Shown here: positions 1,316-23,187 of the stretch, in pieces | Position numbering within the stretch: the stretch's first letter is position 1 | Layout: each line of letters opens with the position of its first letter | Assembly (NCBI GenBank): GCA_020354125.1 | Contig: CP070643.1 | Location: 1,774,147 to 1,819,305 of the forward strand | Reading direction: 5' to 3' | From: Betaproteobacteria bacterium | Lineage (GTDB): Bacteria > Pseudomonadota > Gammaproteobacteria > Burkholderiales > Eutrophovitaceae | Length of the DNA stretch: 45,159 nt | The notes under the pieces: generated by a model | Told to the model about the DNA's origin: nothing | Databases searched by the model: none | Seen by the model: the letters and a program-made list of their open reading frames with translations, nothing else | Program-made: the position numbers and the translations under genes

Positions 1316-1420
1316 TCACATCGCCAACTCGTCGAGCAGCGCTTTGGCTTCTTTCAGGTCTTTGGTGTCGAAGGCTTCGGTGAACCAGTTGTAGACTCGG
1401 TCAAGCAGCTCGCGCGCCGT
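1316..1420 (-). pseudogene. 3' remnant of a cyclase-ATPase-TPR signalling protein gene
   Basis: On the minus strand the frame reads ARELLDRVYNWFTEAFDTKD and then LKEAKALLDELAM before a stop at 1316-1318. This is the characteristic C-terminal tail of class III cyclase-ATPase-TPR proteins. The intact member at 23188-26565 ends with a tail containing HELLAPVHVWFTEG and PDLQEAKQLLEKL. Identity is only moderate, so the remnant came from a different paralogue. It overlaps, in another frame, the last residues and stop of the polyketide synthase gene, marking a recombination junction near 1413-1422. Confidence 0.75.
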
Positions 1421-2774
1421 CGCTCGAATAGTCCTCCAACACGACGTGCGCGTTGACCCCGCCAAATCCAAACGAGTGCAGTCCCGCGCGCCTTGGCGCC
1501 AGGGAACCGTCTCGGTGGGGCTTCGATTCCCAGCGTTGATTACTGGTGCAAAGCCGGAACGGACTATCCTTTAGATACTTCGTTGCGGCGCGCTCGTCGA
1601 CATTGCATGTCGCGGGCAACTCATTTGTCTTCAACGCCCACAATATCTTTAGCAACGCAGCGATTCCCGACGCACACTCCAGATGACCGATGTTCGGTTT
1701 GAGGTAGCCAATTCTACAAGTGTCCACCCCATTAACCATCCCCCGCTCCTCGTAAAGCGTGTTGAACGCCATCTTGAACGCCTCGATCTCCACCGGATCC
1801 GCCAATGGCGATCCGGTACCCTGCGCTTCGATGTATGAGATTGATCCCGGGTCGATTGCCGCCTCCCGATATGCCTTCAGTACTACGTTAGCTTGCGCCC
1901 TCGGGTTGGGTGCGGTGAGCGAATAACTCTTTCCGTCCTGATTCACCGCCGATGCTCTCACTACGGCATAAATGTGATCACGATCGGCAACCGCTTGCCG
2001 CAGAGACTTGAGTAGCACTGCGCCGACACCTTCGCCCCTGACATAACCGGTCGCTCCATCGCTGAACAGCCTTACCTTGCCCTCGGTACTCAAGACTCCG
2101 GCCTTGTTGAGGATGACAAAGCCCTGTGGGTCGAGCAGCACATTCACACCGCCCGCGATGGCCGAATCGCATTCGCCACTCTGGATTGCCCGAACCGCTC
2201 GGTGCAGCGCCACCGTCGAGCTCGAGCAAGCGGTATCCACGAGCTCACTGGGCCCATGCAGGTCCAGAAGATACGAGATGCGACTGGAGAGGATCGAGTT
2301 GACCATGAGTCCGGTTGAAGCGTGGCCGCTGAGCTCGACGTTGGCCGCTCGCAGGACCTCGCTATAGTCGTTATTACCAACGCCGACAAACAGACCGGTA
2401 TTGCTGCCTGCGAACGCGGCAGGCGAGTAGCCTGCGTTTTCGATTGCACTCCAAACCGCTTCGAGCATGAGTCGCTGGCGCGGATCCATCATCTGCGCCT
2501 CTCGTGGCGAAATGCCAAAGAACAGACTGTCGAACTTGTCTACATCTTGCAGAAAAGCGCCCCATTTCACCCATGTCTTGTTCCCCGCGCTATTGGGATC
2601 TCCGTAATACTTCTGCCAGTCCCAGCGGTCTTGCGGAATCTCTCCGATCAACTCCCGCCCCGCATTCAAGTTCTCCCAAAACTGCTCCATGCTGTTCGAT
2701 CCAGGCAAGCGCCCGCCGATGCCGACAATTGCAACGGGGATAAATGCGCCACTGGCGAGCTCTGGAGCTTGTGC
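1401..2774 (-). other. PKS terminal ketosynthase KS3 (non-condensing type)
   Basis: KS3 has Cys4377 in DTACSSS and the later His in PNIGHLECA, but the HGTGT motif reads EAQGTGSPLADP, with Gln4512 in place of the first catalytic His. The domain is complete to the NAHVVLEDY end, after which only a few residues remain before the stop. No post-KS linker, ACP or release domain follows in the same protein. The stand-alone AT-ACP protein at 15372-17042 starts with exactly the missing linker type. Confidence 0.8.
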
Positions 2775-20601: not shown

Positions 20602-22992
20602 TCATGATAGACGAGAGATCTCGCTGGTGACACGCGGGCCGGCGATAGGACCGCTTCGTCCCTCGTGCCCTGAGTCGGCAGGCGCCTGGTTCGACCGTGC
20701 AATTTCCATTTTTCGGCGGCTTGCACCGTCCAGCGAATGCAACCGATCGCTCAGTAATTCCGCAGCTGCCTGCATCAACTGCTCTGCAATCACGTCCACA
20801 TGGCGACTGCGCCATTGCTCCAGTTCGGTGCCCTTTACCCAGCGGTTGAATGCCCCCAACGCCGGTCCGCAGTGGATCTGGTAGTCGACTTGTTGCTCCT
20901 CGCTGCCATTCAGTGCCAGACGCATGGTATGGACAAAGTACCAGCGGAAGATCAGTGCCATCTTGTGTTTTGCGTCACGCTCGGCCCTCTGTACTTGCCC
21001 GGGGTCATGGACCAGGTAGTAGGCACGGGTCTCGTCCCACACGGTGGAGATGGGCCGCCTGAAGTATTTATCCTCGAGCTCTTTGCGGGTCTGCTGATCC
21101 AACGCCTCCAGCGAACCATGCTGACAATAGAGCGCATAGAGCTTGTTGGCGCGTGCCGGAAAGAACAACCCCTTCTTGAGTACTTGAATCCTGGCGCCGA
21201 GCTCGAACATGTCGCCGGCCGGCGCATAGGCGGTGTCACGAACATCCATGCGTTGCAGCAGGTCCTTTGCCGCCTCGCTGGTGCCAGCCTCCACGGTGCA
21301 CTGGTTGATCGAACCGGTTAAGACAAAGTCGGCGCCGAGTATGAAGGCTCCAGCGACCGCCTCCGGCGTGCCTATTCCTCCCGCGGCCCCGACGTGTACT
21401 TCATGTGCGTAGCGCAGCTTGCCGACGAGCTCATCGCGCAATCGAACCATGCTCGGAATCAGTGTCATTGCGACTGCCTGATCGGTATGGCCGCCGGAGT
21501 CGGCTTCCGCGCACAAAGCATCGGCCATCGGAACCTGGCTGGACAGTCGCGCTTGTTCTGCGGTGACCTTGCCTTCGGCCAACAACTTCGCGACGATGTC
21601 TGGCGGCGCAGGGCTCAGAAACGCTTCGGCCACCTCGGTTCGCGAAACCTTGGCGAGCACAGTGTGATCGCACGCGACATTACCGTGCGGTTGTTCACGC
21701 AGGCCGTGGAGGCGATATCTCACCAAGGCAGGGGTCATTTCGATATAGCTCGCCGCCTCGACATTTCTGACGCCGAGCTGGAGAAAAAGATCTACCGTTT
21801 GCTCCTCCAGTTCAGGCCGCTCCAGGCTATAGAGCAGATTCATTCCATAGGCCTGGTCAACCGACAACTCCGCCTGGATGGAGCGGATCGCGTTCTCGAT
21901 TTCGGATATCTGCAGCCCGCCTGTCCCAAAATAGCCGAGCAAGCCAGCCTTCCCCATAGCCACGACCAACTGTTGCGAAGCGATTCCCTTGTACATCGCC
22001 CCGGCGACGTAGGCATATTTCAGGTTGAAGCGCTCCCGAAAAGACTGGCTTCCCAATGCCTCCGGGGTCAGCCGGTGGGAAGCCACGGGTGCCTGAGAAA
22101 CGGTCTTCAACGGGGAAGGACTGCCGCTGTGGCGAACTGGAGCCGGTTTCGCTTCGGCCTTGATTTTTTGCACCAGCTTCGTCAGCACTTTTCCCGGACC
22201 GAGCTCCTCGAACTGCGTCTCGCCGCGCTCGATCAGGTATTCGATCGTTTGCGTCCACCGGACCGGACGCATGATCTGGGCTTGCAAAGTTTCCTTGATA
22301 CGGTGAGGCTCATACGGTTGAGCATATACGTTGGAGATCACCGGCAGCTTGGGTTCCGAGAAGTAGATCGTGTCCAGGAGCTCGCCAAATTTCGCCGCGG
22401 CCGCCTGCATCTGGCGCGAGTGAAACGCGGCGCTCACGTTAAGCGGAATAACCGTCGCACCTCGAGCCTCGAAGGCAGTACTTGCACGATCGAGATGCTC
22501 GCGCAAACCAGAGACGACAAATTGCGACGGGGCATTGTAGTTGGCTATATCGATTTCGGAGAGACCATGCTCTGTCAGGACGGTCGCTATCGCGTTTTCG
22601 TCGAGACCTACAATTGCGGCCATCGCCCCGCCGCGGGCCTCACTCATCAATTGTCCGCGGCGCTGGACCAGCCGCAGGCCGGTCTCGAAATCGAACACGC
22701 CTGAGGCGAACAGCGCGGCATATTCTCCAAGACTATGTCCGGCAAGATAATCAGGCACACGACCACCTTGGGAGACCCTGTGCATATAGGACAGAGTGCT
22801 CACCACGAACAAGGCCGGTTGGGTATACGCGGTGTGGTTCAGGCTTTGTTCGGGATCTTCCAGGCAGAGACGCTCGATCGAGTAGCCGAGGATAGCATCA
22901 GCTTTCGCCGTAACATCCTTGAACGAGCCAAACAACTTTTCACCCATTCCTCTGATCTGGGACCCTTGACCGGGAAAGATGAATGTCGTCAT
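20602..22992 (-). CDS. Trans-acting malonyl acyltransferase-enoylreductase bidomain protein (AT-ER)
   Basis: I prefer the ATG at 22992, because it is followed directly by the family's start TTFIFPGQGSQ; the frame stays open to 23145. The 796-residue protein has an FabD-like AT (1-290) with AGHSLGEYAAL (Ser87) and SAAFHSRQM (His191). This is followed by a PfaD-type FMN enoylreductase (about 330-760) with GYFGTGGL, VHVGAAGGIGTPEAVAGAF and GADFVLTGSINQCTVEAG. This is the standard architecture of trans-AT polyketide helper enzymes: the AT loads malonyl on the ACPs of the AT-less synthase and the ER saturates enoyl intermediates. It is the first gene of the minus-strand operon, with a 195-base divergent spacer before it. 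Confidence 0.93.
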   Translation of the reverse strand: MTTFIFPGQGSQIRGMGEKLFGSFKDVTAKADAILGYSIERLCLEDPEQSLNHTAYTQPALFVVSTLSYMHRVSQGGRVPDYLAGHSLGEYAALFASGVFDFETGLRLVQRRGQLMSEARGGAMAAIVGLDENAIATVLTEHGLSEIDIANYNAPSQFVVSGLREHLDRASTAFEARGATVIPLNVSAAFHSRQMQAAAAKFGELLDTIYFSEPKLPVISNVYAQPYEPHRIKETLQAQIMRPVRWTQTIEYLIERGETQFEELGPGKVLTKLVQKIKAEAKPAPVRHSGSPSPLKTVSQAPVASHRLTPEALGSQSFRERFNLKYAYVAGAMYKGIASQQLVVAMGKAGLLGYFGTGGLQISEIENAIRSIQAELSVDQAYGMNLLYSLERPELEEQTVDLFLQLGVRNVEAASYIEMTPALVRYRLHGLREQPHGNVACDHTVLAKVSRTEVAEAFLSPAPPDIVAKLLAEGKVTAEQARLSSQVPMADALCAEADSGGHTDQAVAMTLIPSMVRLRDELVGKLRYAHEVHVGAAGGIGTPEAVAGAFILGADFVLTGSINQCTVEAGTSEAAKDLLQRMDVRDTAYAPAGDMFELGARIQVLKKGLFFPARANKLYALYCQHGSLEALDQQTRKELEDKYFRRPISTVWDETRAYYLVHDPGQVQRAERDAKHKMALIFRWYFVHTMRLALNGSEEQQVDYQIHCGPALGAFNRWVKGTELEQWRSRHVDVIAEQLMQAAAELLSDRLHSLDGASRRKMEIARSNQAPADSGHEGRSGPIAGPRVTSEISRLS

Positions 22993-23187
22993 GCCTGGCA
23001 CTGAAACATTGTTATGGCGCTCCTGCAATTTGTTGCTGTGCAATACGGATTGCCTGCAGCTACTGGTGGCCTCAATGGCCCGTACATAGGATACTGTCAA
23101 TTGCATCGCGGTGGGAGGTACCCCACGGTTTTCCCCGTGTGTCAAGCTGTTTCTGTCAATCTGATCAGGTAAAGGGCAACTCGAATA
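22993..23187. promoter_or_regulatory. Divergent spacer with likely promoters for the biosynthetic operon and the cyclase gene
   Basis: On the minus strand the hexamer TTGACA occurs three times (23159-23154, 23145-23140, 23100-23095), consistent with -35 elements, but no good -10 box lies at the right distance. Two short stems overlap: GTGGG/CCCAC (23111-23126) and CACGG/CCGTG (23124-23139). They are mutually exclusive, yet only five base pairs each, so may be chance. The plus-strand cyclase start has AAAGGG upstream. Confidence 0.4.

Follow-up and report, generated by a model that had tools for sequence, protein, structure and literature searches.

A trans-acyltransferase polyketide synthase locus with an FkbH-type loading section and a split terminal ketosynthase in a betaproteobacterial genome

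The 45,159-nucleotide stretch of a Betaproteobacteria bacterium genome analysed here (GCA_020354125.1, contig CP070643.1, positions 1,774,147 to 1,819,305 of the forward strand; hereafter the window) carries a five-gene operon, read in one direction on the minus strand, that encodes an acyltransferase-enoylreductase (AT-ER), a patatin-like hydrolase, a thioesterase (TE), a protein consisting of a linker domain, a degenerate acyltransferase and an acyl carrier protein (LD-AT0-ACP), and a large polyketide synthase (PKS; Table 1). Gaps between the genes are short, except for the 318 bases that separate the patatin and TE genes, and the genome that holds them is a single contig of 4.24 Mb with an estimated completeness of 92.5%. 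Its RpoB, compared with those of 17 other genomes (for some over part of the protein), shares 79% identity with an Azoarcus sequence, 73-74% with Curvibacter and Achromobacter and 67% with Xanthomonas and Ca. Endobugula, which points to a betaproteobacterium as the likely host. The PKS is arranged as MaoC-SDR-FkbH-ACP / KS1-LD-DH-KR-MT-ACP / KS2-(ACP-like insert)-ACP2 / KS3, where SDR denotes a short-chain dehydrogenase/reductase, KS a ketosynthase, DH a dehydratase, KR a ketoreductase and MT a methyltransferase. No AT domain was matched within its 4651 residues in the profile search and a discrete malonyl AT is encoded in the cluster, the hallmark of a trans-AT system. An earlier note on this DNA had named the MaoC-SDR-FkbH-ACP start, the AT-less synthase, the AT-ER, the patatin, the TE and the AT0-ACP, and all of these lie on the minus strand with profile matches that mostly score far above the family cut-offs, the MaoC domain being the exception at just above. 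The same note had run the locus to about 23187, but 22992 (MTTFIFPGQGSQ) is the most likely start of the AT-ER. This protein matched PfaD at 690 bits (cut-off 449.25) as well as FabD and carries a GHSLGE motif. The patatin has two candidate starts, at 20514 or 20577.

The portion of the PKS beyond the loading section, namely KS1-LD-DH-KR-MT-ACP, KS2 with its serine-less ACP-like insert, ACP2 and KS3, had been left out of the earlier note, and it is here that the locus departs most from the ordinary. KS1 bears the complete catalytic set (DTACSSS, EAHGTGT and NIGHLE) and is the only intact KS of the three; at the HGTGT position KS2 reads EVAANGA and KS3 reads EAQGTGS. The same ending is found in orthologous PKSs sharing 59% (P0008, best local alignment), 46% (P0010) and 44% (P0009) identity with that of the window, and throughout the four orthologues both KS2 and KS3 have lost the HGTGT histidine while keeping the cysteine, as is characteristic of non-elongating KS0 domains. 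KS3 in addition retains its second histidine, with QGTGS in place of HGTGT in all four. The residues checked in DH, KR, ACP1 and ACP2 are likewise retained throughout, including the His and Pro of the DH motif, the glycine of which is replaced by Gln in P0009. The MT is present in three of the four (absent from P0009), as is the serine-less ACP-like domain in the KS2 linker (absent from P0010).

To place these domains, 765 KS sequences were cut from 199 proteins and one duplicate was dropped. Among the resulting 764, the HGTGT histidine is kept in 687 and lost in 77, 15 of which bear Gln, and EAQGTGS occurs only in the four KS3 domains. These form a clade of their own (support 0.999), separated from the nearest other KSs by a distance of 1.33 or more. 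Of the ten KSs nearest to KS2 outside the orthologues, eight are of the AANG type and nine are followed by no further KS in their protein. Neither KS2 nor KS3 has a neighbour of known product in this tree, a comparison made apart from curated clade labels. KS1, in turn, falls in a 17-member clade (support 0.918) with the KS1 domains of the bryostatin symbiont and Xanthomonas cannabis, and all 17 of the proteins concerned carry FkbH. A PF00109 search of the genome showed no other PKS-type KS: besides the three KSs of the window it returned six matches, each of which lies in a frame of 395-447 aa. A genome search for condensation domains returned none. To the extent that the genome permits, these results rule out that the cluster is incomplete and continued by PKS genes at another site, and likewise that it is a PKS-NRPS (nonribosomal peptide synthetase) hybrid.

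KS3 is the final domain of the PKS and is followed by no linker in any of the four orthologues; the KS-AT linker missing from this position sits at aa 22-87 of the separately encoded LD-AT0-ACP protein. Relatives of this protein comprise seven orthologues (P0102-P0108) and a more distant one at locus L046, a contig of a metagenome-assembled genome (MAG) labelled Janthinobacterium lividum. In all nine AT0 domains, those of the window, P0102-P0108 and L046, the serine of the GHSxGE motif is replaced, and alignment against working ATs shows the small subdomain with its FHS histidine to be missing; P0108 is incomplete, yet covers the part with the AT serine and small subdomain. These losses rule out an active cis-AT on the protein. 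The ACP serine, on the other hand, is present in all eight sequences that reach that position, and the C-terminal tail is alike in seven aligned sequences and similar in L046. Docking of this tail with the N-terminus of the TE is not claimed, as visual comparison of the TE N-termini reveals no clear similarity, and the predicted model of LD-AT0-ACP was poor (pLDDT 56.5, pTM 0.43) and was not used. The two histidine-less KSs and the division between KS3 and LD-AT0-ACP, both of which escaped the earlier note, are the most unusual feature of the locus.

The gene set recurs in L046, where patatin, TE, LD-AT0-ACP and MaoC-SDR are encoded in the same order and on the same strand as in the window, with identities of 49% over 209 aa, 52% over 311 aa, 29% and 40%, respectively; the patatin is thus kept in both operons. 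The contig, which yielded no AT-ER, breaks off inside the PKS gene. The PKS P0008 and the AT0-ACP protein P0105 are inferred to be neighbours as well, since both have a longest-contig value of 27000. Of 399 genomes from the host's order, a sample drawn from a larger group, 27 held a match to AT0-ACP, counting the genome of the window. That genome alone encodes a stand-alone LD-AT0-ACP protein, so the cluster is sporadic in this order; elsewhere, the listed matches fall within frames of 1295-3699 aa, apart from one of 371 aa (G415) for which the match spans just residues 23-232. A homology search with the C-terminal region of the PKS found 1225 proteins (120 listed), in which the KS3 end was not singled out.

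Table 1. Genes and domains of the PKS operon, with the phosphopantetheinyl transferase gene of the same window. Residue numbers refer to the PKS.
Feature	Position	Strand	Residues and motifs	Family or basis
AT-less PKS (P0001)	1401..15356	minus	4651 aa	profile matches
MaoC double hot-dog dehydratase	14487..15299	minus	aa 20-290, DxNPLH at D40/H45	PF01575
SDR ketoreductase	13797..14468	minus	aa 297-520, GGSRGLG, S438/S439, Y452, K456	PF00106
FkbH glyceryl-loading domain	12147..13256	minus	aa 701-1070, DCDNTLW, SKN, DD, SCRV	TIGR01686
Loading ACP	11592..11801	minus	aa 1186-1255, serine aa 1204	
KS1	10152..11456	minus	intact C-H-H (DTACSSS / EAHGTGT / NIGHLE)	
DH	8712..9581	minus	aa 1926-2215	PF14765, PF21089
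KR	7437..8036	minus	aa 2441-2640	PF08659
C-methyltransferase	6177..6986	minus	aa 2791-3060	PF08242
ACP1	5682..5906	minus	aa 3151-3225, GVDSL	
KS2	4095..5402	minus	first catalytic His lost (EVAANGA)	
ACP-like domain in KS2 linker	3702..3956	minus	no attachment serine	
ACP2	2907..3131	minus	aa 4076-4150	
KS3, PKS C-terminus	1407..2717	minus	first catalytic His replaced (EAQGTGS), no linker domain	
LD-AT0-ACP protein (P0002)	15372..17042	minus	556 aa	family matches, alignment
Linker of LD-AT0-ACP	16782-16979	minus		
Degenerate AT of LD-AT0-ACP	16008-16736	minus		
ACP of LD-AT0-ACP	15549-15734	minus		
Conserved C-terminal tail of LD-AT0-ACP	15375-15446	minus		
Thioesterase (P0003)	17098..18315	minus	GYSFG + late His	PF00975
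Patatin-like hydrolase (P0004)	18634..20514	minus	GSSAG + DGG	PF01734
Trans-acting malonyltransferase-enoylreductase AT-ER (P0005)	20602..22992	minus		TIGR00128 and TIGR02814, above cut-off
Sfp/AASDHPPT-type phosphopantetheinyl transferase, outside operon	26808..27563	plus		PF01648, PF22624

The loading section at the N-terminus of the PKS retains all of the catalytic motifs checked. Its FkbH domain matched TIGR01686 at 292.8 bits (cut-off 146.65), and the assignment of the MaoC domain, with a marginal score against PF01575 (27.5 against a cut-off of 27), is backed by the agreement of alignment and predicted model. The latter (mean pLDDT 86) displays two sheets of four strands apiece, both accompanied by a long helix, as would fit a double hot-dog, and then an SDR fold. 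A fold search with this model gave 50 rows of SDR-type proteins, the last a PKS modifying region, and nothing on the MaoC half. The HAD motifs and the SCRV cysteine motif of FkbH enzymes are catalytic. The 15 N-termini that were aligned all share Asp and His of the dehydratase, Tyr and Lys of the SDR, the SKN, DD and SCRV motifs of FkbH and the ACP serine, and 14 of them keep DCDNTLW (DCDQTLW in P0013). A second alignment of MaoC-SDR sequences, composed of the window and 25 of the 62 loci found by a contig scan with the MaoC-SDR alignment, retains D40, N42, H45, S438, Y452 and K456 in all 26 sequences and S439 in 25 of them. Departures among the 15 N-termini include DxSPLH in place of DxNPLH (P0011 and P0029) and, in P0011, an Asp replacing the second serine of the SDR pair, which is presumably the catalytic one judging by the FabG spacing from the Tyr. 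The SDR motif of X. cannabis reads TGGGRGLG, and RTVE replaces RGVE in P0025, P0026 and X. cannabis. The loading ACP of the window itself bears VRNSI, with Val for the Gly and Asn for the Asp of GxDS, and keeps the serine.

Relatives of this section are widespread. It shares 35% identity over 1221 aa with an FkbH-loading PKS from Candidatus Endobugula sertula, the bryostatin symbiont; this likeness, together with the retained catalytic motifs, upholds the earlier suggestion of FkbH loading followed by a bryostatin-like turn from glyceryl to lactyl. Identity to the corresponding PKS of X. cannabis is likewise 35%, over 1276 aa. Of 1320 candidates scored in a search with PKS residues 1-1260, 95 proteins were returned, 21 of which, besides the window's own, cover at least 79% of the query. 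All but P0024, which has no MaoC match, contain MaoC, SDR and FkbH matches in that order, and these 20 divide equally into those with and those without a cis-AT match. The 62 loci of the contig scan, in which Ca. Endobugula sertula is listed first and X. cannabis also appears, include 15 with MaoC-SDR-FkbH in a single frame and 21 with a MaoC-SDR frame and a separate FkbH frame (23 if L075 and L079, with weak SDR matches, are counted). Same-order relatives span several phyla, and the novelty that had been proposed for the N-terminal section itself does not stand. Among 61 genomes, comprising the window's own and 60 relatives, a full-length match to the first section of the PKS was found only in the window's own, and two of the relatives (G035 and G031) match the FkbH part alone. 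A search of open-licence literature for FkbH plus MaoC wording only found no paper, which is weak evidence of absence.

Several of these loci place the MaoC-SDR start in other settings. A family of cis-AT PKSs, mostly of ~3050-3300 residues, begins with MaoC-SDR-FkbH, with loci mostly in Planctomycetota and Acidobacteriota (L045, L056, L059, L063-L067, L069, L071 and L076; proteins P0014-P0018, P0020-P0023 and P0028). At the contig end of a Lachnospiraceae MAG (L050:6785-11508), an AT-AT-ER protein directly precedes a MaoC-SDR frame, probably another trans-AT line with this start. Two cyanobacterial loci (L030:6059-11524 and L053:4958-11494) encode in succession FkbH, an 81-aa ACP-sized protein (matched by PF00550 in L030, no match in L053), an MBOAT O-acyltransferase, one 367-aa frame in L053, and MaoC-SDR; no KS was matched at either. 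Such gene groups would fit the supply of lactyl-ACP to the O-acyltransferase, perhaps acting on a surface glycan. In Candidatus Nitrospira defluvii (L042:7281-13356), a hexapeptide transferase, FkbH, MaoC-SDR and an ABC transporter ATPase are encoded in a row, and the FkbH and MaoC-SDR pair occurs in other Nitrospira loci (e.g. L032, L035, L037, L039 and L040), where lactyl decoration of an exported glycan is possible.

According to a review, fused DH-KR proteins have been characterized that convert glyceryl-S-ACP to lactyl-S-ACP for FR901464 and lankacidin (PMC4765723), a firmer precedent than bryostatin, and FkbH has been encoded elsewhere as a conversion of 1,3-bisphosphoglycerate to D-lactate-ACP (PMC7901079). 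The loading section of the window thus likely makes a lactate starter from glycerate, chemistry that is already known rather than new. For the locus as a whole, we consider the balance of evidence to lean, if not heavily, towards a trans-AT PKS that loads glyceryl by FkbH, converts it to lactyl by MaoC-SDR and extends it, likely once, before release. By homology to the characterized relatives, FkbH would take 1,3-bisphosphoglycerate, remove the phosphate and place a glyceryl unit on the loading ACP, the MaoC domain would eliminate water to give pyruvyl-ACP, and the SDR would reduce this to lactyl-ACP. The AT-ER would charge the ACPs with malonyl for condensation with the lactyl unit by KS1, and methylation by the MT, reduction by the KR and dehydration by the DH would yield a 4-hydroxy-2-methylpent-2-enoyl chain that the trans ER may saturate. 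KS2 and KS3, given the residues they bear, would only pass the chain along, through ACP2 and on to the carrier domain of LD-AT0-ACP, a protein that would supply the rest of the KS3 module in trans; a KS0 has been shown to act as a non-elongating transacylase in hangtaimycin biosynthesis (PMC8456789). The TE would then free the acid or close a γ-lactone. Because only one of the three KSs keeps the full catalytic set, the product is likely an unusually small molecule, predicted to be a C6 hydroxy acid or lactone. Members of the spliceostatin/FR901464 family carry a 4-acetoxy-2-enamide end (PMC7431757), which would fit a lactyl unit extended by a single malonyl and acted on by a KR and a DH.

A number of observations weigh against this single-extension pathway. 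Of the 17 PKSs represented in the KS1 clade, five (P0027, P0030, P0033, P0172 and P0186) have no MaoC-SDR match in the same protein, and five further FkbH-start PKSs that were checked (P0014, P0016, P0028, P0029 and P0092) have first KSs that lie outside the clade, so the clade marks FkbH starts and is no proof of a lactyl substrate; the lactyl step rests instead on MaoC-SDR homology, and its likelihood is left unchanged by these exceptions. The serine motif of ACP2 is unusual in the window (YGCSSVDL), the product would differ among orthologues given that P0009 has no MT, and with the genome estimated at 92.5% complete an additional KS could be missed. A tail of two KSs also seems wasteful for a single extension and hints at an unrecognised step. 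Finally, module 1 could iterate, as proposed iterative trans-AT PKSs include that of lankacidin (PMC10921412). An iterative synthase needs no more than a single intact KS together with DH, KR, MT and a trans ER, and repeated use of KS1-DH-KR-MT-ACP on the lactyl starter would build a longer methyl-branched chain before KS2 takes over. This we regard as unlikely but deserving of serious attention. Against it, KS1 falls in the clade of first KSs from FkbH-bearing PKSs, and a trans ER, the presence of which suppresses module iteration in gladiolin biosynthesis (PMC10921412), is encoded here.

Retention of glyceryl or another oxidised C3 unit as the starter, with the MaoC or SDR domain inactive or acting later, seems improbable. 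A DH-KR-FkbH-ACP order alone is no proof of the point at which these domains act, and the DH-MT-FkbH-ACP section of OocJ has been argued to be non-functional (PMC4552970). The window, unlike the DH and MT of OocJ, keeps all of the dehydratase and reductase residues checked, and the occurrence elsewhere of MaoC-SDR as a separate protein, with the FkbH gene at the same locus, ties the pair to FkbH rather than to chain extension. C-O bond-forming KS-type enzymes exist, as in nonactin biosynthesis, and KS3 with its split LD-AT0-ACP partner might likewise join or release chains, for example through an ester between two hydroxyacyl units. The isolated clade of KS3, its retention of the cysteine and second histidine alongside QGTGS in all four orthologues, and the free γ-hydroxyl on the predicted chain all speak for such a role, whereas loss of the HGTGT histidine is common across the 764 KSs and a non-elongating KS0 in another system is a transacylase (PMC8456789); we hold a joining KS3 to be highly improbable. 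Scarcely better placed is the broader notion of a conserved minimal trans-AT class, devoted to a single small lactyl-primed product, in which a split terminal QGTGS-type KS and its linker-AT0-ACP constitute a new device for joining or releasing hydroxyacyl chains, leading for example to a lactone or small macrodiolide.

Around the operon, the phosphopantetheinyl transferase is the likely activator of its ACPs; PF01648 has two matches in the genome, this one included. Divergent from the operon on the plus strand, positions 23188-26565 encode a SAM domain–nucleotide cyclase–AAA ATPase protein, a possible regulator. A 121-aa frame at 23142-23507, with no family match, is probably not a gene. On the minus strand, the protein encoded at 28862-30844 joins a Rieske [2Fe-2S] domain at its N-terminus to a complete thiamine-diphosphate enzyme.

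If the single-extension pathway proves true, the locus would be a lactyl-primed assembly line of great simplicity, compact enough for glyceryl-to-lactyl conversion, transfer by non-elongating KSs and control by a trans ER to be measured together, the surprise being limited by a loading module of known chemistry. Among its closest likenesses are the FR901464, spliceostatin and thailanstatin lines, which share the MaoC-SDR-FkbH-ACP-KS1 order. Spliceostatins have been isolated from X. cannabis (PMC7930024), the KS1 of which falls in the same clade as that of the window, and locus L033 is inferred, by organism and architecture, to encode the spliceostatin loading PKS. The Burkholderia proteins P0025 and P0026 also bear a histidine-less AANG-type KS2 but carry condensation domains, of which the genome search of the window's host found none. 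Spliceostatin lines comprise 13 modules (PMC7930024), whereas module 1 of the window has a DH and an MT and the line ends at KS3 and LD-AT0-ACP. The BryA loading section of bryostatin is similarly matched: locus L029 of Ca. Endobugula sertula, which by organism and architecture would encode BryA, has the MaoC-SDR-FkbH-ACP N-terminus and a KS1 of the same clade, but two ACP matches follow FkbH and then KS-KR-KS-KR-ACP, unlike the window. In both systems, the downstream modules and gene set differ from those described here.

The fused DH-KR of lankacidin, which is reported to make lactyl-ACP from glyceryl-ACP (PMC4765723), is likened by function. Oocydin A biosynthesis likewise begins with an FkbH-ACP start in a trans-AT PKS, OocJ (DH-MT-FkbH-ACP), which differs in having no conserved DH and MT motifs and a starter predicted to be malonyl (PMC4552970). 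Split trans-AT modules, in which one module is shared between two proteins at the KS, provide the nearest parallel for the end of the line; the junctions named for these are KS/KR, KR/DH and KS/DH, "amongst others" (PMC9113145). In the window KS3 is parted from its own linker-AT0-ACP, the partner being encoded upstream, and this junction would add another to the split points of trans-AT modules.

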